From a virus, in the IMG/VR virus record IMGVR_UViG_3300013115_000607, positions 1 to 42,385 of that record: a stretch of DNA of 42,385 bases. One strand, written 5' to 3'. This document shows positions 3,126-33,223 of this stretch, in pieces. The notes beneath the pieces were generated by a model. The model searched no databases. It was not told the DNA's origin and saw only the letters and a program-made list of their open reading frames with translations. A program made the translations under genes and the position numbers. How positions within the stretch are numbered: the stretch's first letter is position 1; each line of letters opens with the position of its first letter.

Positions 3126-3127
3126 TT

Positions 3128-6100: not shown

Positions 6101-7747
6101 TCACAGATGGAGTTGGAGTTTGGGGCGACTGCTGGTGAGATGACCATGAGGGCGCAACTCGCCAACATGGACCGTGAGCGTGCGATCATACAGATGAATA
6201 ATGAAGAGAAGTCGAGGTTCGCCGAGCTATACCAAGCGGCAGATCGAGGCAACGCGGAGGCTGGCCTGGAGGCCCGGAGGATGGAGGAGGAGTTTGGGGC
6301 TCGCGCCTCGGAGATGCAGCTTAGGGCCGACCTGGAGAATCTTGCAATGGGAAGGTTCGGTCTTGAGTTTGGCAGAGGGGACCAAGCTAGGTATGCAGAG
6401 CTTCAACAGGCTGCGGAACTTGGTGATATAGATGCAACAAGGTCTCTGAGGCAAATGCAGGAAGAGTTTGAGGCTAGATCTGCTGAGCTTGGTTTGGCTG
6501 CTGACAGGGGGACGTTGGATGCAGCCATGGGTGAGGTCCAGTTCTCCTTGGATGACATGTCACGGTATACCCAGTTTCAGCAAGCTGCTGAGGCGGGGGA
6601 TATTGATGCTGCGCGCTCTGCGAGGCAGATGGAGGAAGAGTTTAGCGCTAGGTCGGCTGCTCTAGGCATTGAGGGTGAACAGGCAACGATTCAGTCCAAG
6701 ATCGCTGCTTCCCAAATGGATATTGATGACCTCTCGCGGTATGCAGAGCTTAAGCTAGCTGCGGATCAGGGTAGCGTGGAGGCCCAGCGGTCTGTCCTGG
6801 GTATGCAGGAGCAGTTTCAGCAAGCCTCTGGTGAGATGCAACTCCAGAGAGAGGGCCTGAATATCCAGGCTAGGCAGGGTGAGTTTGATCTCTTGGGTAG
6901 ACTGGGTATGGGTGCTGCCGAAGGGGCCTTTGGCGCTGGTCAGTTCAATGCTGCAAACAGGCTTCGCGCAGCGGAACTCCAGAACCAGTATCAGGCGGAG
7001 CTTGGTCGGTTAAATCTTGCTGCAAGTCAAGGCAGTGTGGACGCAATGATACAGGCTGCTCAGCTAAATGAACAGCTTGCCCAAATCCAGGGTGCACAGG
7101 CTCTAGATTGGGAAAGGGCTGGGGCAGATACGGATCTGGCCGCCGCAGAGATTAGATCCAGAGAGGGTCAGTTCCTGGAGCAACTCAGGGCGGATATTGC
7201 GGGTCGAAATATAGAATACGATCTGCAGGGCCGCCAGTTGAGGGAGCAGGGCCTCCAGGAGGCGGGACAGCAGGGCCTCGCAGCCCTCCAGACGCTTTCC
7301 CCGCTTGAGCTTGAAGCAGACAGGCTTGGGGATGATGCCGCATTCCGCAATGCACAGTTGGCCCTAGCGGCAGATCAGGCTGACCGGGAGTTTGCGATGC
7401 AGCAGGGCGGTGCATACGCGCAGCAGGCTGGCCTGGGAGCAGACCTTGGGCAGCTTTACGACCAGAGGCAGTTGAATCTACTCAGGGAGTTCCAGCGTGC
7501 GGGGGCTTCAAGGAGAGAGCTTGATCAGAATGTCCTAGATATGGCTTATGAGACATACATGAGAAGGACTAACTGGGCCCAGGATCAGCTTAACTGGCTG
7601 CAGGGTATCTTTGCCGGGGCTCCGGCGCAGCAGCAGCAGTACACAATGGCACCCGGCCCCTCTCCGATTTCGGAGCTTCTTGGCCTCGGCCTGGGGGCGA
7701 GTGCGATTGGGAACCTCTTTAATAATAGCGGGCAGCAGGGTACGTAA
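3128..7747 (+). CDS. Giant repeat protein, probable internal virion or ejection protein (1539 aa)
   Basis: The N-terminal 560 residues are Gly/Pro/Tyr-rich and repeat short units of the form FG-x-V/M-T-N-x-Y-x-x-PG; a longer unit beginning M/I-TP-D/E-AL occurs twice, near residues 297 and 416. From about residue 580 the protein is helical and highly charged. From residue 750 to 1240 it consists of 58-residue repeats with the core GNIDA...QM-EEFG-R-AEL...ERSRYAEL. A Gln-rich helical region follows, then a short hydrophobic Gly-rich tail (ISELLGLGLGASAIGNLF). Long helical repeats with a hydrophobic tail fit a podovirus-type internal core or ejection protein, but no family was recognised. The start ATG follows the GNAT gene by 2 nt. 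The next gene begins 11 nt after the stop. Confidence 0.7.
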   Translation: MGSGGGTNYSQGVTYTSDMPVWMEPAHMELARWATEAARLRPFPSYQTADGVPIPRIAGFDEYQIAAFEGTENLYQRGQPETAMAWNAYTDAMNAIGRGQNVIDESYTPGAFTPGGVSSGYVPTNLFDPTDITLNATVGNPIYNRIAAGGGYTVPVNPYSFGPVTHAFGGPTNLDPFFAPPVSATYGYTAPSEMNFGTAAGGYAGMTDALLQQQMSFLRSDARGIASGYTQPGEPRGNFGTVTNAYGDPGAIAPFGDMTNPYTQLLNPPDFGTFSNTYAGPGTLAGFGSVTNPYQRMTPDALAAAIQDLRTADSAYVAPGEISRGTFTRPTDVMMYGPRVSEAEYNRRLVTEASNEFDPSGYWAGLGPGPPWGSVNRVPFTQGLQEGSDFGTTANQFSAPTVNPFGSMDPAAFQAITPEALNTAITGLQTAASDYTGPGTITPGTISGPGDLFETYGGPLGAAGFASRLPTEAVNPFNPAVLGPNPFGTMISTPFDRQMTFDFGAAANDFLAPGEREDFGSVTSGFTPDPAFNLGDVTSGYAAPTYGFDYAAPTDPTGPYSELGYTEATQDFGEWDQPTINKYVDPYMAAHQNLVDQQKDAATEAYQSTLVQNDAEAVARGSRGSYRQELVAQQAQDRYLDTMGDIEEQARASAWEFGQQQYEMDRKAAIVAAQMGDASAVTAANMRMRAFEKDREANVQQQRMQDASGLEQARMTMQADLANVESAGREFQLAGDVGIQAAGLGQAAERANIDAQRSAYQLQQEFGSRAAELGLRADEANIQSARAEDQMGLEERARYAELRSAAERGNIDARRAAAQMERDFGATAGEMDIRAQMANMERERAAVQMDIAERQRYIELTQAADQGNVEAGIEARRMQEEFGSRAAEMDLRADLENISMGRFGLELSTDERSRLAQYQQSAEQGNIEAGRMAEQLELEFGARSAELGIRSGQANIDSQRAYSQMSLDERSRYSELRTAAEMGSIDAMRSASQMELEFGATAGEMTMRAQLANMDRERAIIQMNNEEKSRFAELYQAADRGNAEAGLEARRMEEEFGARASEMQLRADLENLAMGRFGLEFGRGDQARYAELQQAAELGDIDATRSLRQMQEEFEARSAELGLAADRGTLDAAMGEVQFSLDDMSRYTQFQQAAEAGDIDAARSARQMEEEFSARSAALGIEGEQATIQSKIAASQMDIDDLSRYAELKLAADQGSVEAQRSVLGMQEQFQQASGEMQLQREGLNIQARQGEFDLLGRLGMGAAEGAFGAGQFNAANRLRAAELQNQYQAELGRLNLAASQGSVDAMIQAAQLNEQLAQIQGAQALDWERAGADTDLAAAEIRSREGQFLEQLRADIAGRNIEYDLQGRQLREQGLQEAGQQGLAALQTLSPLELEADRLGDDAAFRNAQLALAADQADREFAMQQGGAYAQQAGLGADLGQLYDQRQLNLLREFQRAGASRRELDQNVLDMAYETYMRRTNWAQDQLNWLQGIFAGAPAQQQQYTMAPGPSPISELLGLGLGASAIGNLFNNSGQQGT
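5376..6850 (+). repeat. Tandem 58-codon (174-bp) repeats with a 522-bp higher-order period
   Basis: Consecutive units each span 58 residues from one GN-I/V-D/E-A to the next. Three unit types alternate. Type A has GATAGEM and NM-x-RERA, type B has ADLEN-x-x-MGRFGLE, and type C has ARSAELGI and a following N/D-rich segment. The order C-A-B-C-A-B-C is readable, so the DNA repeats every 522 bp; for example the segments encoding (A/G)-(N/D)-I-(D/E)-A begin near 5382, 5904 and 6426. The last units decay. This points to duplication of a three-unit block. Confidence 0.85.
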
Positions 7748-7758
7748 GGGAATTTATA

Positions 7759-9840
7759 ATGGCTAGACTTGGTATAGCGGGTGATGGTTCTGGTATGGGT
7801 ACAACGGGAGTTGAGCCCGCTTCCAACCTTGACCTTGTTGAGGAGCTAAAGAATTGGCCGGATGAAAGACTCGACCAGGGTCTTGATAATGCTATTCGTG
7901 CAGAGAATAGTCCCATACCGGTCGATGGCCCCCTTGCCCCCGGATATTTAATACTGGCTGAGAAGACCAGGCGAAATGATATCCGGTCCCGGGGTGCTGG
8001 CGGGGGTCAAATGCCTCCCCAGACCACTATCGCTCAGGAGATGTTGCAAGGAGGAATGCCGCAGGGTCCGCAGCAAGGTATGCCTCCCGGAATGCCTCCC
8101 GGAATGCCTCCGGGAATGCCTCCGGGTATGCCCCCTGGGATGCCTCCGGGAATGCCCCCCGGTATGCCGCAGGGTGGGCCGCCTGGAATGCCTCCCGGGA
8201 TGCCACCTGGAATGCCGCCTGGGATGCCCCCCGGTATGCCGCAGGAGGATCCTATGCAATTCCTCGCCTCCCTTGGGGGTGGTATGCCCCAGGGTCCACC
8301 CATGAACATGGCCGGTGGTGGGCTTGTTAGGAATTATCAGGATGGTGGTGAAGTTGCACTCAGGAGGAGGTTGGAGGATCTGAGTCTTTCGGACGAGGAG
8401 AGGATACGCATTGTTAGGGAGATCAGGGCGCTTTCGGTTGCACCGGAAGATATTGAAGAGGACGAGGCCCATTTTAAGAGTTACGGGTTGGATCCCGACG
8501 TTGAACTCCTTAAGGCTTTTGGATTTTCGCCCCGACCCCAGTCCAGCCCAGCCCAGGGTCCCACGGGTGGTCTTAGTGGTCTAGTGAGCCAGTTGGGTGC
8601 TGCTGGGGCTGGCGCTGCGCCTCCCCCCCCTTCTCCGCAAGGCCACCAATATCCAATGGGTGTGATGGCGGATGATCCAAATGCTTTCCCCAATAACCCC
8701 CCCGTCAATTTGAATCCACCGGCCAGAATGGGTCGTGGTGATTGGAGACCACAGAGCCAGCAGGCCCCGAATATGTCTGGAGCCCAGAGGCTTTCCGGCC
8801 TACGCTCCATACCCCAAACACTTTCCCCTGCTTTTTCTGGAATTGACATGAATAACCTTCCGGCCCCGCCCACAACGGTTCCGAGTGACGTTGCGAGACT
8901 CCAGCAAGCTGGTCCCTTTCCGTTAAGCGCTCCGCCCGGGACAGAGGCTGTCGCCATACAGAGGGCTGGTGAGTTCTTGTCTCCGGGAGAGTTGCAGGCT
9001 GCGGGACAGGCTTGGCCTGATGCACCGAGGCAGCAGCGCGGGCAGCCTCCTGGTGGGCCGATGAGCGTAGACCCGCTCGCCGGGTTTGCTGCTGCCAATC
9101 CTAACCTGATGAGGGGCGATGCTCCCCCTCCCGCTCCCCCTCCCACTCCCCGTCCCCCCGTTCAGGTTGATCCAGGCTTTGATTTCAATGCCAGATACAA
9201 TGAGAACTTGGCTGGCCTTGGGGCTGATCCGAGGGTGGCCCAGATGGAGGCATTGCAAGCCCAGATTGCCGGTAGGTCTGGTCCGGACTGGAGGCCAGCG
9301 GCCCAGCTTCAGTTTGCTTTAGGTATGATGGGCGGCAGGACCGTTGGTGAGGGGATCCGGGCCGGTATGCAGGGTGCTGCCCCCTATATGCAGGCTGGTG
9401 CTTTGGAGGCCTCAAGGCAGGAAGGTCAGGCGCTCCGGGACCAGCTTAGTTCACTGGAGAGAATGTCCGCTTCCGAGTCCAGGAGAAGGAGCGAGGCCAG
9501 GGAGATGACCCAGGACCAGCGTTCAGCGGATGTCCAAGACAGGGCTTTCGAGCAGGGAAAGAAGGAGTTCAACGCCCTCCTAAATGTCGAGGATAGGAAG
9601 CTAGTACGTGATAGGAATAAGGAGATTGAGAAGCAGCAAAGATGGGCTGCGGGGGAGCTTACTGACATTAATATCCAGGCTATGAAAATTGCAGAATCTG
9701 CTAGTGGCGATGAGCCGTTAGAGGGGATGGGCGCTGAGGTGAAGGATGAATATTCCAAGAGACTAATGGAGAATTACTTTAAGTTTCAAGGCCTTCTCAT
9801 TGGGTTGTCGAATGATTCTGAGGAGAGGGCTGCCTTTTGA
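7759..9840 (+). CDS. Gly-Met-Pro-Pro repeat protein, probable virion component (693 aa)
   Basis: Residues about 107-162 are almost entirely GMPP repeats. They are followed by [16 protein letters not shown], a phrase I recall from structural proteins of marine phages. A charged helical segment (residues 195-240), Pro-rich linkers (including [13 protein letters not shown] near 455-470) and a helical C-terminal third with many Arg, Glu and Gln complete it. There is no enzyme motif. The start ATG lies 11 nt after the previous stop with a weak AAGGGA site. The stop TGA overlaps the TTG start of the giant polyvalent gene (TTGA), so the pair is likely co-translated. Its likely place is the virion interior with its neighbours; this rests on position and composition only. 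Confidence 0.7.
8077..8244 (+). repeat. 12-bp tandem repeat encoding Gly-Met-Pro-Pro
   Basis: About fourteen 12-bp units of the type GGNATGCCNCCN follow one another with one interruption (GMPQGG). Third positions vary among C, G and T, so the repeat is older than the last slippage events and is kept at the protein level. Confidence 0.9.
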
Positions 9841-12800
9841 CGCCTGAGGAATATCTTAGGCATATACAGGGTGGTTCCCAGGGTGGAGATATCTTCTCCC
9901 TGGCGGCGGGTCCCCGTCAGAAGAAGCCTGCGCCATCGAGGAGGAGAAAGGTTTTTCTCCCAGATGGAAGTCATGTTACAGCCGGTGAGGACCTGACGGA
10001 CGATGAAGCCCTGGCGAAGGCGAGGAAGAAATTCCCCGAGGCATTCGCTGTGGCTGAGGTTGATTCCAGTCCCCTGGACGCCTTTTCCCAGACGTTCCAG
10101 AGGACCGTAGAGGGGACTATTCCCGGGGTGCAGGCCATGGGGGCTGCGATCTCAGGAGATGAGGAAGCCTATGATAGATACCAAGCCGAGGTAGCCGAGG
10201 CCAGCAGGCGTTCCCAGGCTAAAGCGCCTGGACTTCTGCGCACTGAGGACATTACAAAGGCCTACGAGGAAGAGGGGTTACTCTCCGCCGTGGGTACCGG
10301 CCTTGAGTTTGGTGCTGAGCAAATAGGTTCCAGCATGGGCCGCATGGCCCCTTCTGCCCTAGTGGGTGGCACTGCGGGTGCTGTGGCTGGTGCCGGTCTG
10401 GGTATGTTGGGTGGCCCACTCGCCCCACTGACCTCCCCGCTGGGGGCGAAGATCGGCGGCTTTGCGGGTATGACGTTGGCCAGCATGGCTGCGTATATGT
10501 CCGAGGATCTTGAGCGCTCCTACGAAGAGGGCCTCGTTGATACCAAGGATGTAAATATAGGACGAACAATAGTTGCATCGGGCGGTCAGGCCGCCCTGGA
10601 TAGTCTTGGTTTTATCATTGCCGCACCGCTGAGTGCCGTCAAGGAGCCCGTTAAAAAGGCGGGCTTTGCTGCGTTAGGCAACCTGATAGACAAGATAGAC
10701 GATATGGCCCCCGTGAAGCGCTTCCTTGCCACACTGGCAGAGGAGGAGGTGGCTGAGATCGGACAGCAGGCCCTTGAGAGGTGGCAGGCTGGCCTTGAGG
10801 TTAGCCCCGCTAATCAGGAAGCAGCCCAGGAATATGCAGAGATAGCCTTCGCGACCCTGTTCCCCGCTGCTGGCTTTGCCGGGGTTGGTGCAGCGAGTGC
10901 CAAGTATTCCCAGCACCAGAAGCTCCTTGAGGAGCGTAAGAAGTCAGAGATCGCAAGAGAACTCCCCAAGATCATGGAGGCAATAGAAAAAGACGAGGCC
11001 CGGAGGGCGGCTGAGTTAATCGAGTCGGATGCTGCTGACAAAGACGCGCAGCCCAGGACCAGCGCCTTCTGGAGAAGTAGGGCTGCTGAGCTTACGGGTG
11101 GATTGAGGGAGCAGTTCCTCAGGATAACCGGTGGTGCGCAGGCGGTTACTCCAAAGGATATCCATCGGATAGCGGAAGACAGAAATATTTTATGGGATGA
11201 TGACCCCGCTTTCCTAGCCTTCACGAAGCGGATGACGGGATCATTTCTCTTGGATAGCCTAGATCAGCCAAGGCTGAGGGCTATGTATGACCGCATATCT
11301 GCAATGCCCAGGCAGGAGCAGCCGTCTATCCTTCAGTATGCAAGTGCCGAGGAGGCGATATCCCTAGCCGAGAGGTTTGGAAGCAGGAAGAATAAGACTG
11401 TTTCACTAGCAACTATCAAGTCGGCGCTCGGGCTGAATGATCCTAAAATTAAAGCAGAGACATCCGAGATCATGGCTCAGGGCGTCCTCGACAAGATGGT
11501 TTCGATGAGGCTTGTTGAGCGTTCCGAAAAGGGTGACAAGTATTCCCTTGTTAAGAAGACCCTCCCGCCGCAGGTGGGCGAAGACACTTACAGTTCTATC
11601 ATTGACGATACGGTTGATGCTGGCGAGTTCCCGTCCCAGAGGAAATTGGCAAAGAAGTACGGGATAAAGAATAGCAAGGTATACAAGAGCATACGCGATG
11701 CTGCTGCTCGTAGGCTAGACATTGTTGAGAGGGATGGTCGCTTTGTTCCCTTCTCCCTAGACGAGAGCCTGAACAAGAACAGGTTCCAGTTGAAGGTGAA
11801 CGGTGAGCTAAGGCCTCAGTTCTACTCAAGTCGGGAGGAGGCAGAGGCTGCTCGCGATGAGATCCACAGCATGGAGGGCGGCAAGACTCCAGAGCAGGCA
11901 GACAATGATCAACTCCTCCTTGCCAAGCTGGGTTCAAGCCGCTTCCTTGAAAACGAAGTGCCCTCACAAGTGGCGGAAGTTGTTGAGGTTGCTGGGCTTG
12001 AATCCCCAGAGGCTGTCAGCAGCTATAACTATAATGTGTCACACAAGGAGAGGTCGGATAAGTCCCGCTCCTGGGTTGTCAGGGATAAGCTCGGTTCCGT
12101 TGTAAAAATATTTCAGTCCAGGAAGAAGGCTCTGGACTACAAGAAAAACGCAGACCAAAACACATACGCCTACGATGTCACCAAGGACGGGACTAGGCTT
12201 GGTCGGTTTAGTACTAAGGAAGAGGCCGATGCGTTCCTGGTGGCTCAGGAAAAGACTATAAGGGACCGGAAGAGGAAGTCTGTCCTGGAGGCTCTGAGTG
12301 TCGGTGTCTTTAGCCAGGGACTTGTCGAGCGTCAGGCGGATTCCCAATCCTCCGCCTTCGCAAAATCCTACATGAAGGATGTGAAGGTATCTTCCGTTGG
12401 GGTTGGTTCAGGCCTTAGCTTCAGGCGGGAGGTTGGATTCAAGGTATCCGAAACCTCCCTGGATAGAGATGGCACCACCTCCAAGGAAAGAGTTCTTGAG
12501 TTCATTGATTACTCCCGTGAACAGGAAGCCTTGCAGAAACGCCTGGATAGGGGTGAGATAACCCAGGCTAGGTTTGACAAGGAAGAGGCCCGTCTAATTG
12601 AGAGGGCAGAGAAGGCTGCGAATAGTGTCAAGGACAAGACGCAGCACGCAAGGGTTGGCCGCGAGTCCGTCAGGGGGAGGCTTGGTGTAAGGGCTAGGCC
12701 CGACCAGGAAACCACCGAGGAGGGGAGAAGGCTTCTCTCCGAGGCTGAGATTGCTAGGGGTGCAGTCCCTGATCCGGAACTCAGGGAGATACCCGTAACT

Positions 12801-15800
12801 ACCCTGGAGCCGGGTCGCAACATGCCCGAGGCACCTGATGGTGCAAGTGAAAGACTTGAGAAGATAGTAACCTCCCTGCGTAATTACCTAAAGGGAACTG
12901 GGCTTGATGATGTGCAGGTTAAGATATCTGAGAGCCTGGAGACCAAGGGTGCGAGTGCTACGTTTGACGATACGCGCAATCTGATAACCCTTGCCTACGA
13001 CCCGTCGCTGCAGGGTATCGAGAGTGCGGAGGAAATTGTAAAAAGGCTCATACCTCTCGTCAACCATGAGACAATTCATGTCTTCAGGAAGCTGAATGTA
13101 ATCAAGGCTATTGAGTGGAAGTCTCTTACTAAGTATGTCTCCAAGAAGAAGATTTCAGACAAGCGCCTTGAGCAGATCAACGACAGGCTGATCAACAGAG
13201 GGAAGGGCCCGCTTAAGAAGGGTTCCACTTATCTGGATTATGCCTACACAGTTTATTCTGATATGGGTAACAGGATTGACCAGATCAATTCACTCAAGGA
13301 GAGCCTTGAGGCTGGTGAGATAACCCAGGAGCAGTACGAGCAGGGCATAGCAAGGGAGGACTCTCTCAAATTCATCAAGGATGATTATGTAGAGGAGGCT
13401 GTCGCCCAGCTATACCAGGACTATTCTTCGGGTGCGGCGAATATCGCCGGTCAGCCCAAGGGTCTCTTGCTCAGGTCTGCCAATGTCATCAAGAGTATCG
13501 GCAGGGCTCTGATCGGTCAGGGATACAAGAGTGCAGAGGATGTATTCGCCAACCTCTATGGCGACCAGATGGCATCGAGGATCCAAGGGGGTAGGGCCCT
13601 TGATCTTTGGTGGTCACGGAGACCCGGTGAGGTGGCTGATGCCGCCAGGAGCCTGGGTGAGGGAAGAGAGGCCCTGACTGAGGCGCAGGACGTTCGCAGG
13701 CGTGAGCTTGAGTACGAACTGGCGCGTACTGGTAAGAGTAAAACTCAGGCAGAGTTGGATGAAGAGGTAGATACACAACTCGCCAGGGAGTTCGGTGGCA
13801 TTGCTGGTACAGTGGGCAGTGAGGCTGGCCTGGATATCGCCCTAGAGGCTGCCGCCAAGCGTGCTGAAGCTGAAGCTGACGAGAGGAAGGAGGAGCGCAA
13901 GAGGGAAAGAAGCGGAAGAGAGCGGGCTTCGCTATCGGATAACTTCTCTAACGACGCATTGCGCAGCACTGAGGCCGATAAGCCAAGATCTCGCTCCACT
14001 ATCATTCACATTTCTCCACAGGCCTTTTTGGATATCTCCAACGATGGGCGAATTGAGGAAAAGTATGAGAGTGCCAGGAGCAGGGTGAGGCGTCGGGTTA
14101 AGTTTAGCTCTGTTCCCTATATTGGCTTTGTGAATGATGGTGACGGAACTGCGACGGTTGTGGGTCATGAGGGCCGACATAGAGCCATGGCGTTGCTGGA
14201 GGAGGGGGTGGAGTCTATCCCCGTAGAATTTAGATCTTTGGAGGATAATAATATTGGCCCAGCCATTAGATGGGATGTGCAGAATGATCCCGATAATATG
14301 GTGCCCGGAGCTTGGCCAAGGGTTCTAGTTGGTCAGGACGGTAGAAATTCGATCCCCTTTCCGGTCGAAGACCTGAGGTCTGCCCCCGCTTCCAGGGTGA
14401 GTGGGAGGAGTGGTTGGAGGAGGGAGAAGAGCGGAAGGGAGCGGGCTTCGCTGATCTCGGATGAAGATGCGGAGGCTGCGGCTGAGACGCAGCGGGGTGA
14501 ACCCGAAATTGTCATGGACCAAATAACGGCGGGGCGTAACTCTGCCGGGTTCATCTCAAAGCTGAAGGATTTCCTCATGGAGATCGGAGATATGCCAAAC
14601 AGGGCGCAACGGCATACCGGTCACCAGATGGAAGACCTCAGAGATAAGCTCGATAAGGTTTTGACCGTAGGCAGTGGCCGCAGGCTACGGAAGCTTTTTG
14701 AAGAGTCCAGATGGATGCAGGCCGAGGAAGATATTCTATACGGATTAGAGCCTGAGCTTGTGCGGCTGGATGATTCTTACTGGGATCCTGAGCTTGAAGG
14801 CGGCTATCGCAAGGGAGGCCACAGGAATTTTTGGAAAGATGAGGGCTTTGAGAACAGGACTGCACTATATGATCATTTCCGGAACAAGCATCCAAACCTT
14901 CAGGAATTGGTTGACGGGGAGGTTGAGAGGCAGAGGGCTTCCGAGGTAGAGCCCTTGGCGCGCTATGTAGCAGCCCATGAGGAGCATACCGTTGCGCTGA
15001 CGGAGATGAGCGAGCTAGGGAAGGGGATGGCAATCGACCTTGGTAATGGTGATTATGATGCTCTTTACGAGAAGGCGCGGGATCTGGATGTTTTGGTTTC
15101 TGAGTACGAAAGTCTAGAGGCGGAAGGAAGGAAGGACGAGGCCGAGGCGCTGAGGCTAAGGCCTGCCCCGGAGTCCCCCGTGCGCCCGCCGACTGGGACC
15201 AGGAGATTCCCGCCCGGTGGGTCTCCTGAACTACAGGATTCCCGGAATTGGCCCACTCCCGCTGAGATACAGGTACTGTCAGGGCAACCATTCAGCGGAA
15301 CTGTCGAGAATACTTCGTTCGAGGTGGTGCGCCCACTGAATGCCCCCAAGGCGGATAGTAGTCTCGGCAACGCCTCCTGGTTCAAGGTTAACTATGATGG
15401 AAATGGCAATTCGTCAGAGTCCGGTATGCCCCTTGTTGTCCTCTCCGGCCACCACGAACCCGCGCAGGTTGCCCCGGACGGCTCGGAGATAAAAGAGCGT
15501 GGCTTTGGTGCTGCCCATATAGAGAGCCACAACCAAGAGATAGAGGATCTTACTTCCTACAACAACTGGCAGGAGCTTGTCACTGCATTTTCCCGGGCGA
15601 TGAGGGATTTCCCTGCCAAGGTTAAGACAGGTGAGATCACCCCCTATGCTGAGCCAGGTAGCGTTTCATATATTTGGAACGATCCAAGCTCGGAGGCAGA
15701 CAACATCCTCATACACACAGTCAGCGCAAACAAGGAGGGGTTGGGGGATGTTTCCTACCTTGTGTCTGCTTATCCTACGGATACTTTCTCCGTTGTTGGG

Positions 15801-18746
15801 GGCAGTAGGAGGAATAAAACTGGTCATCTACATGGCCCGGACGCCAGCGTTGAATCCGTTAAGACCTTCTTGAACCCGGGCAATGCACGCAAGTTCGGTG
15901 ATTCAGATCGCCGCAGGCACGCAGTCGATTCCTATGAGGGACGGCCTCCGAAGGTGAGGGAGGCTATGGAACAGGTCCTCGGTCGGTCTCGCACGAAGAA
16001 CATGAGAACCCTGTGGGGATCCCTTGGTGAGGCGCTGAGGTCTACCGATAAGTCCATGATTGATAAGTGGACTGCGATGACCATGAACAGATTCAAGAGG
16101 ATTGAGCGTTACGGGGAGTGGGCAAGGGAGAAGGCTTCCAAGCTGGGACTAGAGGGATTGCACGACCTTGCGGATGTGTCAGCCCACTCAATGGCGCTTA
16201 TGTCTGACAAGGCCCAGTCACTGCTTGCTTCATCCATGAGGGACGGGATACTCACCTACCGACATGGAGTCCCCATGGTCGAAACCCTTAAGCTCGTTAC
16301 GGAAGCCAGGGCTAAGGTCATCGACCCCACCACGGGCGATCTTGTCGATGGCGATCTGATCTCCATACCGGATCTCTACAGTGAAGGCCAAACGGGTGGC
16401 ATGTTCCCGATGCTTGAAGCTCTGGCGACCCCATCGAAGAATCTTATACCCGAACTAATGCTGTACATGAGAGCGCTTCGTGGGTACAGACTCGACAGGG
16501 AGGGTAGGTCTTCTGGCCTTAGTAAGGAATCTATCGAGGCTGGATTCCAGGTGGCCAAGGATAATCCTGAGATAGTAGTTGTTGCGCAGAACCTGCAGAA
16601 TTGGAATGAGGGGATCATACAGCTACAAGTTGATGCTGGCCTCATTACTAAGGAGATGGGGGATGTGTACAGGAAATACTCTGACTACATTCCTTTCTAT
16701 CTCAACCTTGAGGACACAACGACAGATGCTATCGAAGATGTGATGCTCAAGGAGTTGGGCAGGCGTGACGAAATGTTCCTAGCTGGAGGTATCGCAAATC
16801 AAAATCCCTCTAGGAAATTCAAGGGCATCCGAGAAGGTGCTGAGTTTGAGAATCCCATTGAGTCTATTACTAAGAATGCTAAGGCGGCCATCCATTCAAG
16901 CCTGCAGAATATTGCTTCTCAGCGTGCGATCAGGGATATGCTTATGTTGGGGCTTGGGAGAGAAGTCAGGTCTTCAGACAGGTCCAAGCTGGGATTTTCC
17001 GACAGGGGCCGGATGGTTACAGTCAGACACAGGGGTGAGCCTAGGCATTTCCTGCTAGATGATCCGCTGTTCCATGAGGCTATGGTCGGAGCGTTCGACG
17101 GTATCAGTCCATGGATGGAGCATCTGGGTATGCCAGCCAGGGTACTCCGTGGCCTCGTTACACGATCACCCGAGTATCTCATCGCTAACATGCTGAGAGA
17201 CTCGATGCACGTATATATATTGAACGGTGGTGAATCGACTCCAATTATAGATGCCAGTAAGACGATGACAAAGAACCTTACGAAGATGCCAAAGGGTGAA
17301 GCAAACGAAACGTATACCCTTCTTCAGAGGCTCGGTGTTGTTAGTGGTGTTGAGCAGGCAGAGCTTACCCCGGAAAGGTTGGCGAACAGATTCGCCAGGA
17401 AGACTGGAGAGGGGAGTGGGGTAGGTCGTCTCTTGACCAAGCTCTGGGATGTTACCGGAGAGATGAGTTCCAGGTCTGAGTCTGCAACCAGGGAAAATGT
17501 TTACGAGACCACGTACCAGCACGCTCTCAAGAAATACAGCGACATGGGATTTAACTATGTCGATAGCAACGGTATCAATGTGGCCGAGAGAAAGGCCATG
17601 GGTGAGGCGGCGAACCAAGCGATTGAGGTTCTTAACTTCAGTCGAAGGGGTAACAATGGTTTCGTCAAGTTTGTTACAGCTACTGTACCCTTCTTGAATT
17701 CTAGATTGCAGGGCCTGGGCGTTATGGCGAGATCGCTTCGGGGCAACAGCATTACGGGCAGGCTGAACCCGGATGCAACCAAGAGGGTTATGATCAATAG
17801 GGCGATGACCGTATCAACTATATCCGCCCTGTATGCGATCATGTCTGAGATGGACGAAGACTGGGACAACATACCCAGCGAGATACGTGAAAACAACTGG
17901 CTGATCCCCATTACATTTGAAGACAAGAGATGGCTGTCTATCCCGATCCCGTTTGAGGCCGGTGTTGCGTGGAAAGCTATTCCTGAGATGATTACAAGAT
18001 TGATAATGGGGCAGCTTTCGGACGGCAGGAGCGGGACCAGTTCCAAGGAATTTTTCGAGTCCTTCCGGCATCACATAGGTTCCACCCTTAACTTCAACCC
18101 CCTACCGCAGGCGCTCCGGCCACTGTATGAGTGGCTTGCAAATCAAAATATATTCACTGGCAATCCAATCGTTCCACACTGGCAAGAGAACATGAAAGCC
18201 AGTGAACAGTTTGGTGACTCGACCACTGCTCAGGCCATCCTTGCTGGCAAGATGACTGGCTTGAGCCCCAAGAAGATAGATAACACGATGAAGACTATCT
18301 TTGGTGGTGTCGGGATATGGGGTATCCAGATGGTAGATTTCATGTTGAGGCAGGGTATCCCCGACATGCCAACGCGCCCAGCGCCTAGGCTTACAGACCT
18401 TCCGATCATTCGGAGGTTTGTGAAGGATGCCTATGGCCCCGGCCTGAAGAATGACTTCTATGATATTAGGAGTTCTGTCAGGGGTGTTGTCCAGGCAATC
18501 AATCAGGCCAAGGGTGATGACCCGGAGAGGGCAGCCGAGTTAATCATGGACAATCGCGAGCTTCTGTCTGCGAGGAAGGCTGTTGGTGTTATCGATAAGA
18601 GGCTGTCCAAGATAAGGAAGGCTAGATCTCAGGCGTTCCGCAACAACACCCTGACCAGGGAGATGGATGACAAGCTGGATGAGATGGAAAAGGAAGCACT
18701 CAAGATGGTGCCCACGCTGAAGAGGATGATCGCTGGATGGGAGTGA
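9837..18746 (+). CDS. Giant polyvalent internal virion protein with metallopeptidase-like, ParB-like, PBECR-like and LPD38-like regions (2969 aa)
   Basis: The TTG start overlaps the previous stop. Visible parts in order: a short domain near residues 35-65 (FLPDGSHVTAGEDLTDDEALAKA); a Gly/Ala-rich hydrophobic stretch at 155-220 that could insert in a membrane; two winged-helix-like stretches near 530-640; a gluzincin-like zinc site HETIH (1077-1081) with candidate third ligand in DDYVEEAV near 1187; a ParB-like segment with GHEGRHRA near 1445 between duplicated linkers; GFGAAHIESH near 1889-1898, resembling PBECR-type nuclease domains of polyvalent proteins; and from about 2040 a long C-terminal region with NFSRRGN, PFLNSRLQG and NFNPLPQALRP, resembling LPD38. 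Such proteins are thought to enter the host with the DNA and act on host targets. Domain boundaries are approximate; activities are inferred from motifs. Confidence 0.75.
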   Translation: MTPEEYLRHIQGGSQGGDIFSLAAGPRQKKPAPSRRRKVFLPDGSHVTAGEDLTDDEALAKARKKFPEAFAVAEVDSSPLDAFSQTFQRTVEGTIPGVQAMGAAISGDEEAYDRYQAEVAEASRRSQAKAPGLLRTEDITKAYEEEGLLSAVGTGLEFGAEQIGSSMGRMAPSALVGGTAGAVAGAGLGMLGGPLAPLTSPLGAKIGGFAGMTLASMAAYMSEDLERSYEEGLVDTKDVNIGRTIVASGGQAALDSLGFIIAAPLSAVKEPVKKAGFAALGNLIDKIDDMAPVKRFLATLAEEEVAEIGQQALERWQAGLEVSPANQEAAQEYAEIAFATLFPAAGFAGVGAASAKYSQHQKLLEERKKSEIARELPKIMEAIEKDEARRAAELIESDAADKDAQPRTSAFWRSRAAELTGGLREQFLRITGGAQAVTPKDIHRIAEDRNILWDDDPAFLAFTKRMTGSFLLDSLDQPRLRAMYDRISAMPRQEQPSILQYASAEEAISLAERFGSRKNKTVSLATIKSALGLNDPKIKAETSEIMAQGVLDKMVSMRLVERSEKGDKYSLVKKTLPPQVGEDTYSSIIDDTVDAGEFPSQRKLAKKYGIKNSKVYKSIRDAAARRLDIVERDGRFVPFSLDESLNKNRFQLKVNGELRPQFYSSREEAEAARDEIHSMEGGKTPEQADNDQLLLAKLGSSRFLENEVPSQVAEVVEVAGLESPEAVSSYNYNVSHKERSDKSRSWVVRDKLGSVVKIFQSRKKALDYKKNADQNTYAYDVTKDGTRLGRFSTKEEADAFLVAQEKTIRDRKRKSVLEALSVGVFSQGLVERQADSQSSAFAKSYMKDVKVSSVGVGSGLSFRREVGFKVSETSLDRDGTTSKERVLEFIDYSREQEALQKRLDRGEITQARFDKEEARLIERAEKAANSVKDKTQHARVGRESVRGRLGVRARPDQETTEEGRRLLSEAEIARGAVPDPELREIPVTTLEPGRNMPEAPDGASERLEKIVTSLRNYLKGTGLDDVQVKISESLETKGASATFDDTRNLITLAYDPSLQGIESAEEIVKRLIPLVNHETIHVFRKLNVIKAIEWKSLTKYVSKKKISDKRLEQINDRLINRGKGPLKKGSTYLDYAYTVYSDMGNRIDQINSLKESLEAGEITQEQYEQGIAREDSLKFIKDDYVEEAVAQLYQDYSSGAANIAGQPKGLLLRSANVIKSIGRALIGQGYKSAEDVFANLYGDQMASRIQGGRALDLWWSRRPGEVADAARSLGEGREALTEAQDVRRRELEYELARTGKSKTQAELDEEVDTQLAREFGGIAGTVGSEAGLDIALEAAAKRAEAEADERKEERKRERSGRERASLSDNFSNDALRSTEADKPRSRSTIIHISPQAFLDISNDGRIEEKYESARSRVRRRVKFSSVPYIGFVNDGDGTATVVGHEGRHRAMALLEEGVESIPVEFRSLEDNNIGPAIRWDVQNDPDNMVPGAWPRVLVGQDGRNSIPFPVEDLRSAPASRVSGRSGWRREKSGRERASLISDEDAEAAAETQRGEPEIVMDQITAGRNSAGFISKLKDFLMEIGDMPNRAQRHTGHQMEDLRDKLDKVLTVGSGRRLRKLFEESRWMQAEEDILYGLEPELVRLDDSYWDPELEGGYRKGGHRNFWKDEGFENRTALYDHFRNKHPNLQELVDGEVERQRASEVEPLARYVAAHEEHTVALTEMSELGKGMAIDLGNGDYDALYEKARDLDVLVSEYESLEAEGRKDEAEALRLRPAPESPVRPPTGTRRFPPGGSPELQDSRNWPTPAEIQVLSGQPFSGTVENTSFEVVRPLNAPKADSSLGNASWFKVNYDGNGNSSESGMPLVVLSGHHEPAQVAPDGSEIKERGFGAAHIESHNQEIEDLTSYNNWQELVTAFSRAMRDFPAKVKTGEITPYAEPGSVSYIWNDPSSEADNILIHTVSANKEGLGDVSYLVSAYPTDTFSVVGGSRRNKTGHLHGPDASVESVKTFLNPGNARKFGDSDRRRHAVDSYEGRPPKVREAMEQVLGRSRTKNMRTLWGSLGEALRSTDKSMIDKWTAMTMNRFKRIERYGEWAREKASKLGLEGLHDLADVSAHSMALMSDKAQSLLASSMRDGILTYRHGVPMVETLKLVTEARAKVIDPTTGDLVDGDLISIPDLYSEGQTGGMFPMLEALATPSKNLIPELMLYMRALRGYRLDREGRSSGLSKESIEAGFQVAKDNPEIVVVAQNLQNWNEGIIQLQVDAGLITKEMGDVYRKYSDYIPFYLNLEDTTTDAIEDVMLKELGRRDEMFLAGGIANQNPSRKFKGIREGAEFENPIESITKNAKAAIHSSLQNIASQRAIRDMLMLGLGREVRSSDRSKLGFSDRGRMVTVRHRGEPRHFLLDDPLFHEAMVGAFDGISPWMEHLGMPARVLRGLVTRSPEYLIANMLRDSMHVYILNGGESTPIIDASKTMTKNLTKMPKGEANETYTLLQRLGVVSGVEQAELTPERLANRFARKTGEGSGVGRLLTKLWDVTGEMSSRSESATRENVYETTYQHALKKYSDMGFNYVDSNGINVAERKAMGEAANQAIEVLNFSRRGNNGFVKFVTATVPFLNSRLQGLGVMARSLRGNSITGRLNPDATKRVMINRAMTVSTISALYAIMSEMDEDWDNIPSEIRENNWLIPITFEDKRWLSIPIPFEAGVAWKAIPEMITRLIMGQLSDGRSGTSSKEFFESFRHHIGSTLNFNPLPQALRPLYEWLANQNIFTGNPIVPHWQENMKASEQFGDSTTAQAILAGKMTGLSPKKIDNTMKTIFGGVGIWGIQMVDFMLRQGIPDMPTRPAPRLTDLPIIRRFVKDAYGPGLKNDFYDIRSSVRGVVQAINQAKGDDPERAAELIMDNRELLSARKAVGVIDKRLSKIRKARSQAFRNNTLTREMDDKLDEMEKEALKMVPTLKRMIAGWE
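13901..14452 (+). repeat. Duplicated linker flanking the ParB-like module
   Basis: Two near-identical stretches about 519 bp apart (13901-13933 and 14420-14452) both encode an Arg/Glu-rich run followed by SGRERASL. The core 23 bases differ at one position. They enclose the ParB-like segment of the giant gene, and the offset is a multiple of three. Confidence 0.75.
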
Positions 18747-29064: not shown

Positions 29065-29634
29065 TTATCCGGCTCTTCTGGTTGAGAGAAATTTCTGCCA
29101 GTCCGGATGCCCAGGCCACACGGTACAATACTTAGCCCTGTTACATTCCGGACAGATCCCCTTGAAGTTAATGGTGCAGTGGCGTCCACCCATAGCCAGG
29201 GGCATGACATGATCAGTCTGTGTTGCTGGCTTCTTTACACACACGTAGCATGTTCCGGACGCTGCCGCACGGTAACCATCGCCACAGCAGTGGCTACACA
29301 AGGAACCACTCTTGCGTGCCCTCCGCCTCGCCCCCCTCTCCCGCTCAAGCCATGGCTTGATCGTGCGTTGGACGGAGGCATACAACCTGGAGTATTCACG
29401 ATTATCTTTGCGCCACTGCAGGCTGTATTCCTTGTTGTACTCCTTTACCTTGTCAATGTTTTTAGACACCCAACTCCTCCTGTGAATAAGGTTTACTCCG
29501 GGGTTATTGTCTTTCCATTTCCTGGATGATTCACGGGAACATTCCCGACACCTCCACTTACCGCCCCTGGATCTAGACTTATCCTTCACCCAAATCTTTT
29601 TACTTCCATGCTTATTGCATACATTGTCAATCAT
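29065..29634 (-). CDS. HNH endonuclease
   Basis: The 189-residue protein has an N-terminal Cys pair region (WRCRECSRESSRKW), a long basic helical middle, and a C-terminal HNH fold: CSHC and CYVC zinc pairs, then TDHVMPLAMGG, then NFKGICPECNRAK. The DH...N pattern is the catalytic core. Free-standing HNH enzymes of this type in phages are often homing nucleases; a packaging or degradation role is also possible. The ATG at 29634 has GGAGG 6 nt upstream and overlaps the end of the VWA gene by 8 nt. Confidence 0.85.
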   Translation of the reverse strand: MIDNVCNKHGSKKIWVKDKSRSRGGKWRCRECSRESSRKWKDNNPGVNLIHRRSWVSKNIDKVKEYNKEYSLQWRKDNREYSRLYASVQRTIKPWLERERGARRRARKSGSLCSHCCGDGYRAAASGTCYVCVKKPATQTDHVMPLAMGGRHCTINFKGICPECNRAKYCTVWPGHPDWQKFLSTRRAG

Positions 29635-30955
29635 TGGGAACCTCCACTTCGATAACGTCTCCGAACGGCGGGCGATTCGACCACCCGTTTCCATCGTAGA
29701 CGGGCTCGGATGTCGCCCAAAGCACAGGGCATTCCGGCTCATCACCGTACCTACTGTCGCCCAGGTCTGTAAATATAATTAGGGAGTCCGGCTCCTGATC
29801 TTGTCTCTTGAGCCAATTCATTACACATTCAAAGCGAGTTCCCCCGCCCACCCTGAACCTGCTGGGCACCTCGTCTCCACCGTAGATCTCCTTGATGTGC
29901 TTTCCCTGAATTGCAGAATTGAATGGCAGGAGCGTGATCCTTTCTGCGGGGATCTCGTATCGCATGATATTTATTTGCTTGATGAAGGCATCGCACTCCC
30001 TCTGCATGATGGATCCGGAAACATCAATAGCTATTACAACCCAGTTGAGTCCACCCTTCTCCATGGATGGTGCCCATATACCCGAAGGGATATACCTCCG
30101 GTTGGGCTTGCTCCATGTCTCATTGTAGGGGTCACCGGATCCAGACCAGAAATCCTTGAGGAGTGAATCCCATCCAGCGGACGGTGACAGGATGTCATTG
30201 ACGGCACGCTCATGCAATGTCCCAGTCGAGTTGCCTGCATCACGCGCCACTGATGTTGCGTTGACGATCTCGGACTGCAGCTTGCGCATCTCGTCGTGCT
30301 TCTGTTCCTTGCTGAGTTCTGCACCGCTCACATCACGGGCATCCCATACTTCACCGGGCTGCTTGGGCTTCTTAACCTCAGCGACCTCTGCCTTCTCTAC
30401 CTTATTCTTCTCATCCTTCTTGTCCTTCCCCTCCCCATCGCCGCCGCCGGTGGCTCCCTGAGTTGTATCATTAACAATCTCACGGCCACCCCCACCCCCC
30501 GTGGGCTTGGGCTTGGGCGCCTGGGCCATCACTTCACCATACACCCTCTCCGCACTCCACCCCTTAAACTTCTGATCACACAGCCATCCCTCACCGAGCT
30601 TCAGTCCAGACTCCACGATCAGGTGATTGACAGCATGATCTGTTGCTTCGTTCCACAACTCATGGTCACGCCTACCCCTGCGAAGATGGTGGGCGAGTGC
30701 CTTGTGAGACGTTTCATGCACAAGAAGTGCGAGCTTCTCATCCTCGGTGAGCCCCATGTAGTAGTCGGGGTTCACGAAGAGATGGGCCCCATCGGTTGCT
30801 GCAGTGTCAACTGGGTTCCCGTAAAACTCACTACAGACAACTATCTTGAAGCTCATTGCGAGCGCACCGTAGTAAGGGAGTTGCGTGAGGCATCGGTATC
30901 GAGTCCTCACTACAGACTTATATGCAGCATCAATCTTTGCTTGATCTACTTCCAC
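29627..30955 (-). CDS. VWA domain protein with HExxH metallopeptidase-like N-terminus (DUF2201/CobT-like)
   Basis: The 442-residue protein joins three parts. Residues 1-150 hold LLVHETSHKALAHH (His80, Glu81, His84) and a likely third ligand in NEATDHAVNH, as in the putative metallopeptidase domain of DUF2201 proteins. A Lys/Glu/Gly-rich linker spans about 150-205. A VWA domain has DVSGS (311-315), GGGT (near 370) and FTD (Asp near 396), a full metal-ion-dependent adhesion site. The GTG at 30955 follows AAGGAGAACCAA. An earlier GTG at 31003 lies before a hairpin and is rejected. VWA proteins of this type work with MoxR/CobS-like AAA+ ATPases, and one is encoded directly upstream. Confidence 0.85.
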   Translation of the reverse strand: MEVDQAKIDAAYKSVVRTRYRCLTQLPYYGALAMSFKIVVCSEFYGNPVDTAATDGAHLFVNPDYYMGLTEDEKLALLVHETSHKALAHHLRRGRRDHELWNEATDHAVNHLIVESGLKLGEGWLCDQKFKGWSAERVYGEVMAQAPKPKPTGGGGGREIVNDTTQGATGGGDGEGKDKKDEKNKVEKAEVAEVKKPKQPGEVWDARDVSGAELSKEQKHDEMRKLQSEIVNATSVARDAGNSTGTLHERAVNDILSPSAGWDSLLKDFWSGSGDPYNETWSKPNRRYIPSGIWAPSMEKGGLNWVVIAIDVSGSIMQRECDAFIKQINIMRYEIPAERITLLPFNSAIQGKHIKEIYGGDEVPSRFRVGGGTRFECVMNWLKRQDQEPDSLIIFTDLGDSRYGDEPECPVLWATSEPVYDGNGWSNRPPFGDVIEVEVPND

Positions 30956-30968
30956 TTGGTTCTCCTTG

Positions 30969-30990
30969 GGGAGGGGGTTTCCCCCCTCCC
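30969..30990. repeat. Intergenic G-rich hairpin between AAA+ and VWA genes
   Basis: GGGAGGGGG (30969-30977) and CCCCCTCCC (30982-30990) form a nine-pair stem with a short loop. On the - strand it stands immediately before the AAGGAGAACC ribosome site of the VWA gene, so it could tune translation or partial termination within the trio. Confidence 0.6.
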
Positions 30991-31012
30991 AGCTAATTGT
31001 CACCGTTGTTTT

Positions 31013-32161
31013 TTATGCGAAGTTCAGTTCCTTGTAGCGAACCTGAGCATCACTCCATACGCTGGTGTTTGCAAACTCAGGGTATGCCTGCTTGCACAGG
31101 TTGAGTGCGAACAGGGTCATCTCGTCAGACATTCTGTCGAAATATTTTACGTATGCCTCGAAGATCCTCGTCTCCACATGCACGCTCCTCTTCTTGCAAT
31201 CATTGAGAAAACATGCACAGTTAGAGATGACAGCATACTGACCCGAAGGTCCGATCTCTGGGTTATTATCTCCGGGGAGAAGTGCACCCTCGGGATCATC
31301 CACGATCTCCTCCCGCGTCGGAAGATCCGACTCCATCAGGAAGAATGCCCTGATCTCAGCCCACATCCTCTCCCCAACACAGCCGGGAGCGAGGGCATCA
31401 AGGATGCGTTCGTTCACATCCTGCTCCAGGAGAGAGTTCAGCTTCTGGAGTCCACGCGGAGAGGGTTGAACCTTCGCCTTCGTGTTGGGGTCAAACCCAC
31501 TGAGAAGATCCTTGCTGGTAACGTCGGACCACTCAAGCATGTTGATGAGGCGACGATCCCACTCGCTATCCTCGGCGTGCTTGATGAGCCTACTCATCGA
31601 CACTCCCATGGGCACAGTGATGATGCGACCCTCCCGAATGGAGCGAGGGAGCGGGCGAGCGCCGCACTTATCCTCGGGGCGATTGCCAGCAGCCATGTAC
31701 ACACAGTTGCTAGCCTTCTTCTTACCCCGAATCTCACCAGACTCAACGACGGACTGCCATGCCGAGAGTGTCGCAGGGTTAGCGTTAGGAAGCTCGTCCC
31801 AGAATACAATCACAATGTCATACTTCTCGTCTCCCGCCGCACGCCCAAGCACATCGTCAGGCACAAGGAAGTTCAGAGTTCCAGTCTTGAAGTCCGGGGC
31901 CGGGGCACCGAAGTCCACGCTATCACTCTGCGAGAGGATGTTCGTGCGAACAAGAACCTTGGGCCGGTTCAGTTCCAGAAACTCCGACCCGTTCCGCAGC
32001 TTCCACTCAGGGTAGGCAAGAATCATCTGAGTCTTCCCGATACCAGGGATAGCCTCAAGATAAATAATGGAAGAGTCACCCCTGAGTTGTGCTTCAACTG
32101 AGGCGTCGAACAGTTGCATCATCTCTTCCGTCGAGAAGTCATCGGTCTTGTTGAATTCCAT
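31013..32161 (-). CDS. MoxR/CobS-like AAA+ ATPase
   Basis: The 382-residue protein has Walker A AIPGIGKT (37-44), Walker B DIVIVFWDE (115-123) and a sensor-1 Asn in YMAAGNRPED (Asn160). The segment PLPRSIREGRI corresponds to the Arg-containing region of MoxR proteins. The C-terminal 150 residues are helical. Such ATPases remodel or load metals into protein complexes together with VWA partners. The start ATG carries a full CAGGAGAACTAAAATGG sequence. The gene lies 25 nt after the DUF3150-like gene and 57 nt before the VWA gene. Its stop codon is the TAA that opens a half copy of the early-region palindrome. Confidence 0.88.
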   Translation of the reverse strand: MEFNKTDDFSTEEMMQLFDASVEAQLRGDSSIIYLEAIPGIGKTQMILAYPEWKLRNGSEFLELNRPKVLVRTNILSQSDSVDFGAPAPDFKTGTLNFLVPDDVLGRAAGDEKYDIVIVFWDELPNANPATLSAWQSVVESGEIRGKKKASNCVYMAAGNRPEDKCGARPLPRSIREGRIITVPMGVSMSRLIKHAEDSEWDRRLINMLEWSDVTSKDLLSGFDPNTKAKVQPSPRGLQKLNSLLEQDVNERILDALAPGCVGERMWAEIRAFFLMESDLPTREEIVDDPEGALLPGDNNPEIGPSGQYAVISNCACFLNDCKKRSVHVETRIFEAYVKYFDRMSDEMTLFALNLCKQAYPEFANTSVWSDAQVRYKELNFA

Positions 32162-32186
32162 TTTAGTTCTCCTGTTTTAGAATTTT

Positions 32187-33110
32187 CTAGAAGTCTCGCT
32201 TGGTACCAAACCGCCCCACCTTGGAGAGGATGTCCGTAGCCTTGGTCTGGATATCTTTCCTGAGTTCGGGTGATTCCCGAAGTGCCTCAGGTGAGACAGG
32301 GCAGATGTCATTGACCAGCCTGCGCCTTACCTCCTCAATCGCAGGGTCATCAGTGATGTTGAAATGCTCAAGCAAACCAGCAATGTCACGTACATTAGTA
32401 ATGATAGTGTCATGGAATCTACCCACTACCTTCCCGTCTGCATCCTTACCGTAAGCACCCATCCGATCAACCATCCGGGTGAGTACTTCCTCCACTCGGT
32501 CAGCCACATTGCGGACGGTTCCCTCCATCCTTGTTTTCTCAGCAGCCTTAACATCTTGGATGAATCGCTCACGCATTTCTCTCGGGAGCCCGCCAACCCT
32601 GATGTCGTCCACACTCGTCACAGTTCCGGGTACAATATCAATGTGGAATTTGGCTCTTGCTGCATCTACCGAAGGGAATTCAATCCCATACTTCGCAAGC
32701 CCACCACCCTCTGCATTCCAAAGTGCCTCCTGCACAGGGAAGGTTGAGAAGTGAAGCTCCATCTCTGATTCAATCTCAGCAATCCTCTTCACGCATTCCG
32801 CATCAATCTCAGGCTTGATCGCATTCGGAAGGAACCTCCGACCATCATCACCCCAGGGCACAGTCTTCTCATTGATAAAATTACGCAGCGCCTGCCCCAT
32901 CTTCTTCGCAGTGTCGAGGTGCGAGGAACTAGAGAAGAGGTTCACCGTTACAGCAGCCCTCTTCTTATTCGTAATCCCCTTCGCCTCATGGAGTTCCTTC
33001 GTCGCCTCCTTGTGCTTCTTGACCCCACCCCCATAGCTTGCGTGAAATGAGATAGTCGTACCCATATCCGCAGCAGAAGGGAGCTTCACTTCACTCTTGA
33101 TTGCTTCCAT
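32187..33110 (-). CDS. DUF3150-like helical partner of the AAA+/VWA pair
   Basis: A 307-residue soluble protein. It has an N-terminal segment (LPSAADMGTTISFHASYGGG), a basic helix, then TVPWGDDGRRFLPN (near residue 84), and long helices up to the C-terminus. The PW-x-DDGRR-x-LP phrase and the layout resemble DUF3150 proteins, which sit beside AAA+ and CobT/VWA genes on integrative elements and phages. The resemblance is from memory of the family and needs a profile search. It is the first gene after the strong promoter at 33196-33223, with palindrome 33125-33143 and a perfect start-associated sequence before the ATG. Confidence 0.6.
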   Translation of the reverse strand: MEAIKSEVKLPSAADMGTTISFHASYGGGVKKHKEATKELHEAKGITNKKRAAVTVNLFSSSSHLDTAKKMGQALRNFINEKTVPWGDDGRRFLPNAIKPEIDAECVKRIAEIESEMELHFSTFPVQEALWNAEGGGLAKYGIEFPSVDAARAKFHIDIVPGTVTSVDDIRVGGLPREMRERFIQDVKAAEKTRMEGTVRNVADRVEEVLTRMVDRMGAYGKDADGKVVGRFHDTIITNVRDIAGLLEHFNITDDPAIEEVRRRLVNDICPVSPEALRESPELRKDIQTKATDILSKVGRFGTKRDF

Positions 33111-33123
33111 TTTAGTTCTCCTG
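33107..33123 (-). promoter_or_regulatory. Shared start-associated sequence (type example)
   Basis: CAGGAGAACTAAAATGG read on the - strand covers the ribosome site, spacer and start codon. Identical copies occur at 32158-32174 and 35846-35862. Close variants precede the starts at 35464, 30955, 28995, 27601 and 22609. The spacer bases between AGGAG and ATG are conserved well beyond what ribosome binding needs. Confidence 0.7.
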
Positions 33124-33124
33124 T

Positions 33125-33143
33125 AAAAAACACCGTTGTTTTT
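33125..33143. repeat. Early-region palindrome copy 1 (centre CCGT)
   Basis: A6-CA-CCGT-TG-T5. It sits 14 nt before the start of the DUF3150-like gene and downstream of the promoter at 33196-33223, so it is in the 5' leader. Confidence 0.8.
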
Positions 33144-33195: not shown

Positions 33196-33223
33196 AGTAT
33201 AGCACACGCACAACCAGTGTCAA
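33196..33223 (-). promoter_or_regulatory. Strong sigma70-like promoter for the DUF3150-AAA-VWA operon
   Basis: On the - strand TTGACA (33223-33218) is followed after 16 nt by TATACT (33201-33196), with a TG one base before the -10 (extended -10). A/T-rich sequence follows to the leader palindrome. The gap 33111-33229 holds no gene. This is the best promoter match that I found in the window. Confidence 0.75.

Follow-up and report, generated by a model that had tools for sequence, protein, structure and literature searches.

What is the function of three adjacent viral genes that encode a DUF3150-superfamily helical protein (C), a MoxR-type AAA+ ATPase (A) and a protein joining a zincin-like HExxH domain to a VWA domain (M)? 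The genes lie in IMG/VR virus record IMGVR_UViG_3300013115_000607, the whole of which (42,385 bases) was analysed and is referred to here as the window. A sequence-only reading had described them as co-directional, and all three ORFs were found on the minus strand (Table 1). They share this strand with Erf and an exonuclease; the terminase, the large ORFs and the lysis genes are on the opposite strand. In the plus-strand stretches 142-9840 and 9837-18746, no PHROG matched the ORFs of 847, 1539 and 693 aa, and a further ORF, of 2969 aa, is matched by two unknown PHROGs in its C-terminal quarter only. These large plus-strand ORFs probably belong to a little-known phage group and code for its virion or ejection proteins.

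Table 1. Position of the three genes and of the neighbouring gene and control sequences in the window
Feature	Position	Strand	Basis or remark
HNH endonuclease-like gene	29065-29634	minus	HNH_5, 27.8 bits against a cut-off of 27.5
Gene M: zincin-like (HExxH) domain plus VWA, N4 gp25-like, 442 aa	29627-30955	minus	ORF
Hairpin GGGAGGGGG-GAAA-CCCCCTCCC, between A and M	30969-30990	minus	-22 kcal/mol; just before the M ribosome-binding site
Gene A: MoxR/midasin-clade AAA+ ATPase, N4 gp24-like, 382 aa	31013-32161	minus	ORF
Shared start sequence CAGGAGAACTAAAATGGA, gene A	32157-32174	minus	exact 18-mer
Gene C: DUF3150-superfamily helical protein, 307 aa	32187-33110	minus	ORF
Shared start sequence CAGGAGAACTAAAATGGA, gene C	33106-33123	minus	exact 18-mer
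Leader palindrome AAAAACA-ACGG-TGTTTTT	about 33126-33143	minus	
Sigma70-like promoter TTGACA-N16-TATACT, extended -10 TG	33196-33223	minus	11/12 matches
Third CAGGAGAACTAAAATGGA copy, away from the trio	35845-35862	minus	exact

The M ORF spans 29627-31003 and would give 458 aa if GTG 31003 were used; GTG 30955, a few bases behind AAGGAGAAC, is most likely the better start. The HNH endonuclease-like gene, which the sequence-only reading had left out of the gene set, begins within M, its start overlapping the M stop by 8 nt. Because of this overlap, the transcription unit comprises at least four genes, and translation of the HNH-like gene is probably coupled to that of the trio. No such gene was seen directly downstream of M in the related loci inspected. 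The proposed strong sigma70-like promoter was recovered as the best site of its kind within 9.6 kb, but its class barely exceeds chance (10 sites in the region versus 6.9 +/- 2.3 expected). The proposed leader palindrome is present, and the shared start sequences were borne out by the exact CAGGAGAACTAAAATGGA copies before C and A. Three exact copies (32157, 33106 and 35845) compare with 0.03 expected when three mismatches are allowed. They form a repeated translation-initiation cassette.

M belongs to DUF2201. Both domains, DUF2201_N and the VWA-like DUF2201 (the PF13203/PF09967 pair), pass their Pfam cut-offs (117.5 and 60.2 bits versus 23.2 and 26.4; E 1.1e-33 and 2.8e-16), and the HExxH motif and the metal site (MIDAS) expected from the sequence are both intact. 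Their union is normal for DUF2201 proteins and nothing peculiar to this phage. Across 43 divergent homologues (25-37% identity to the window copy), residues H90, E91, H94, W111, N112, A114, D116 and N120 are invariant, as are MIDAS residues D321, S323, S325, T383 and D407 of the VWA domain. An AF2 model (pLDDT 85.6) places HExxH on helix 81-96 and WNxAxDxxxN on the adjacent helix 108-125, with D116 as a candidate third ligand in a gluzincin-like arrangement. In Foldseek only the VWA half was matched (Ro, CLCA1, the MDN1 MIDAS and others); since the N-terminal domain had no PDB match, its peptidase fold is one that we infer. The best sign of catalysis is the HExxH glutamate, because it is invariant across homologues as distant as these, and M is likely, from its conserved residues, to be an active peptidase.

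M is widespread. A tblastn search found it in 677 of 50,697 phage records, N4 gp25 among them, and it occurs in at least 584 IMG/VR stretches. Many of its relatives carry another name: PHROG_1314, N4 gp25 (8022-9164 of our locus L002) and many RefSeq phage records label these DUF2201 peptidase/VWA proteins 'HNH endonuclease'. We rejected this assignment, as M and N4 gp25 match DUF2201 domains only, and the wide use of the label is apparently a propagated error. Protein gp96 of Tunturiibacter phage Tunturi_3 (L179, 5818-6777) is also labelled 'HNH endonuclease', yet it is matched by the C profile (DUF3150-like) at 5e-34.

The CobS/MoxR-like assignment of A was upheld. A matches PHROG_1297 'ATPase' (E 6e-38), and the MoxR-type AAA+ motif set is present by alignment. 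Residues P38-G39..K42, D121-E122, N159, R178 and R235 are invariant in six phage homologues and may be read as Walker A, Walker B, sensor 1, Arg finger and sensor 2; in the window copy, Ala takes the place of the first glycine of Walker A. The Pfam profiles AAA_5 and AAA_3 gave no match to A of the window, and AAA_5 matched its homologue in Synechococcus phage MinM2 with 23.6 bits against a cut-off of 22. N4-like ATPases related to A were retrieved in 194 phage records. The best solved relative of the family profile in the PDB, a remote one, is midasin, an AAA+/MIDAS remodeller. In midasin (Rea1/MDN1), CobS/CobT and RavA/ViaA, likewise remote in sequence, a MoxR-clade AAA+ protein works with a MIDAS-VWA protein; to our knowledge, an HExxH domain is not part of these or other AAA+/VWA machines.

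C was the least recognizable of the three. The window copy has no match in Pfam, DUF3150 (PF11348) included, at E<=10, and direct searches of Pfam, NCBIfam and PADLOC were of no use for either C or A. The DUF3150-like character suggested from the sequence was supported through its homologues, 15 of 39 of which match PF11348 at E<=1 (best 5.5e-7). One of them (L092) reaches 25.9 bits against the cut-off of 24.9, and most others among the matches listed fall below it, which marks the family as a divergent branch of DUF3150. The AF2 model built from the window copy (pLDDT 91.3, pTM 0.83) had eight BFVD matches below 1e-7, with a 'DUF3150 domain-containing protein' at the top (E 3.5e-17, TM 0.76-0.79). 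A tblastn search with C also reached the MinM2 protein annotated DUF3150 (23% identity, 2e-7). The family consists mostly of long helices with the conserved stretches TLPWxDxGxRLxP, DxRV and LRxDxxxR. Fold and sequence searches of the PDB with C gave no match, and for this reason an adaptor role for C is something we infer. VMAP, the third component of the vWA-MoxR-VMAP conflict system, is absent among the 25 Pfam families listed for C homologues.

Do the three genes belong together? With a three-sequence profile, subsequently iterated, C was found next to A and M in 49 of 93 M-bearing loci, a raw count in which some loci overlap or are copies. Across these loci, C was either detected at E below 1e-14 or absent, with nothing intermediate; in roughly half of the viral loci sampled, it is a genuine third partner on the same strand. 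The proposal of a joint complex of C, A and M thus survives as a candidate, since C is DUF3150-related and co-occurs with the other two. Trio members are always co-directional. Viral trios have the orders ACM (27), CAM (10) and AMC (2), chromosomal trios ACM (11 of 12) or CAM (one), and the trios of the four plasmids examined are all ACM. Co-directional genes in a shuffled order are what a functional unit would be expected to show, and C, A and M very probably constitute one. C is not obligatory in it, as A and M occur without C in N4 (gp24/gp25) and in many loci of viruses and bacteria. In the tree of M, the window falls in a viral set of 18 (starred), 17 of which have C; the eighteenth (L016) begins with gene A and is possibly cut short. 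Scans for loci with single proteins reached only a contig with identical proteins or one MinM2 relative. Close parallels among named phages are the Planktothrix and Synechococcus phages Pag-Yong1, Pra-JY27 and MinM2, in which A, C and M are close together (annotated in MinM2 as MoxR family ATPase, DUF3150 and VWA-like). They differ from the window in the order A-C-M, in the small genes between and in a C protein only 23% identical (tblastn).

In 16 viral loci with A and M and without C, another conserved protein of about 220 aa with the motif F.TLNQ.LK is encoded between A and M (L023, 7333-7995; L031, L036, L037 and 12 others). Its relatives were also detected downstream of M in three trio loci (L059, L083 and L086). 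Given this position and the lack of detectable kinship with C (hhalign probability <1%), the idea of a swapped third subunit was not supported.

The genes recurring around viral trios, in 38 loci, encode a primase-helicase (18 loci), small terminase (17), large terminase (9) and a PD-(D/E)XK-type exonuclease (9). Together with a weakly Rad52-like protein and a Cas4-like nuclease that directly precede A in a Desulfobacteraceae locus, these neighbours point to the DNA-replication/recombination stage; as early regions of phages are compact, they are a pointer and not a proof.

The trio is not phage-specific and occurs on conjugative plasmids and bacterial chromosomes as well. Searches through M retrieved A-C-M trios in assemblies of Acidobacteria, Desulfobacteraceae, Cloacimonadota, Acetobacteraceae and Chloroflexi, most of them MAGs, in which they may represent an integrated element; the three-sequence C alignment found no bacterial genome. 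C alone matches 44 plasmid records, mainly of Burkholderiales. In one of these, Cupriavidus basilensis pRK1-1, NCBI annotates a row of ATP-binding protein, DUF3150 and VWA-like protein, all three of which match the trio profiles; unlike the window, this is a conjugative plasmid with PRTRC genes nearby and not a phage.

We propose that C, A and M work as one ATP-dependent remodelling and peptidase machine with a non-virion target, a reading of the sequences that we hold to be evenly balanced between right and wrong. A would form a MoxR-type AAA+ ring and exert pull on a substrate complex or rearrange it. M would be its VWA co-factor, binding via its MIDAS, and its zincin-type peptidase would cut the substrate thus exposed. 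C would be a helical adaptor or scaffold, either recognising the substrate or linking M with A. The substrate might be something that phages, plasmids and chromosomes have in common, either a host protein or a nucleoprotein complex involved in replication, recombination, partition or transcription. Regulated proteolysis or maturation, the role predicted in the sequence-only reading, is possible for such a set. More tentatively, the trio could be a portable three-subunit ATP-driven peptidase of phages, plasmids and chromosomal elements that, during takeover or maintenance, remodels a host or nucleoprotein target or cleaves it. If true, this would explain the conservation of N4 gp24/gp25 and provide a first function for DUF3150 and DUF2201. 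In any case, the relatives of N4 gp24/gp25 are now linked to DUF3150 as a concrete and testable set of three proteins with named catalytic residues, and the pair is accessible in laboratory phage N4, the trio in hosts other than phages.

An alternative is that the trio disables host defence or a competing element, or defends its carrier, and is for that reason shared among elements and found travelling with PRTRC. Phage, plasmid and chromosomal trios do interleave in the tree of M (built with a quick method and with several weak forks). The PRTRC cassette (TIGR03736, TIGR03737 and TIGR03741; ParB-related and ThiF-related proteins) was encoded near the trio in several plasmids (L175, L180 and L182) and in Acidobacteria (L096 and L098), and trio and cassette may be parts of one larger system. 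Of 15 trio-bearing records, 8 had PRTRC_ThiF above its cut-off, as against 0 of 10 pair-only genomes, a contrast that is a lead and not a statistic since the sample is small and phylogenetically clustered. A conflict role has been proposed for other MoxR-vWA systems (PMC7159879). However, PRTRC itself is without a known function, no significant PADLOC match was obtained for C, A or M (best E 0.044), and A and M, as core genes of N4-like phages, look more like housekeeping genes than like a patchy counter-defence. On balance, we consider a conflict role unlikely.

The sequence-only reading named no assigned function for such a set in lytic phages; the pair of A and M, however, is already known in phages. 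N4 gp24/gp25 are in the conserved core of N4-like phages (PMC4193335, PMC7650795), and group 2.2 jumbo phages encode a MoxR AAA+ ATPase with a vWA protein fused to an N-terminal metallopeptidase, as described by Iyer et al. 2021 (PMC7824862). Homologues of the window proteins were retrieved in Salmonella 7t3-like jumbo phages. In N4, the same two proteins are encoded close together on one strand, as are their co-directional neighbouring homologues in the window. The A profile found gp24, M matches gp25 (E 8e-28), which has both DUF2201_N and DUF2201, and the aligned proteins are 21-28% identical; unlike in the window, no C gene was present in the 17 kb of N4 that were examined. The passages of Iyer et al. 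2021 on the jumbo-phage pair make no mention of a third partner, plasmids or chromosomes. The term 'DUF3150' was not found in the open literature searched, and neither the three-gene unit nor its spread over plasmids and chromosomes appears to have been described in the literature searchable without subscription papers and preprints.

The function proposed there for the jumbo-phage pair is virion assembly with processing of structural proteins, by analogy with an Acidianus virus MoxR-vWA pair needed for tail formation (PMC7824862). Extended to the trio, A and the VWA protein would act as chaperone and cochaperone for the head or tail, and the peptidase would trim structural proteins. The core status of the pair in N4-like phages agrees with this proposal, as does a mid-phase 'second structural module' that adjoins the gp24/gp25 homologues in one roseophage (PMC4193335). 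Nevertheless, N4 gp24/gp25 are middle and not late genes (PMC4193335), the trio and the structural genes of the window are on opposite strands, and the same module is carried by conjugative plasmids and chromosomes, from which no virion is made. These three points together disfavour virion proteins as the general substrate. As the trio is common to lytic phages, conjugative plasmids and bacterial chromosomes, its substrate is probably not a virion protein, and the three-gene unit on plasmids and chromosomes, with its constrained catalytic residues, argues against a purely virion-assembly role. We thus think it rather likely that the main target lies outside the virion, and virion assembly, too, is an unlikely function. 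The main text of the CRISPRi-ART study (PMC11879866) contained nothing usable on the fitness of N4 genes.

Two further alternatives concern the chemistry of the machine. If the zincin-like domain of M had lost its peptidase activity and served for binding only, A, M and C would be a pure disassembly chaperone. Midasin-type AAA+/VWA machines do work without proteolysis, and no peptidase fold was matched by M in the PDB, but a catalytic glutamate and two histidines that are invariant in 43 of 43 homologues would be unexpected in a dead peptidase, making this reading improbable. Least probable of all is the loading of metal into a target enzyme in the manner of CobS/CobT or NorQ/NorD, AAA+/VWA pairs linked with metal or cofactor insertion, as the general resemblance among such pairs leaves the HExxH and WNxAxD signature unexplained and the clustered neighbours of viral trios include no recurrent metalloenzyme.

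Two individual loci deserve mention alongside the proposed remodelling and peptidase machine. In Planktothrix phage Pag-Yong1 (L009, 8045-8822), the gene two places downstream of the one for the VWA-like protein carries the annotation anti-CRISPR AcrVA2. In a Desulfobacteraceae assembly (L102, 5551-7026), a weakly Rad52-like protein and a Cas4/AddB-like nuclease are encoded directly upstream of A-C-M, which may be compared with Erf and the exonuclease on the trio strand of the window.
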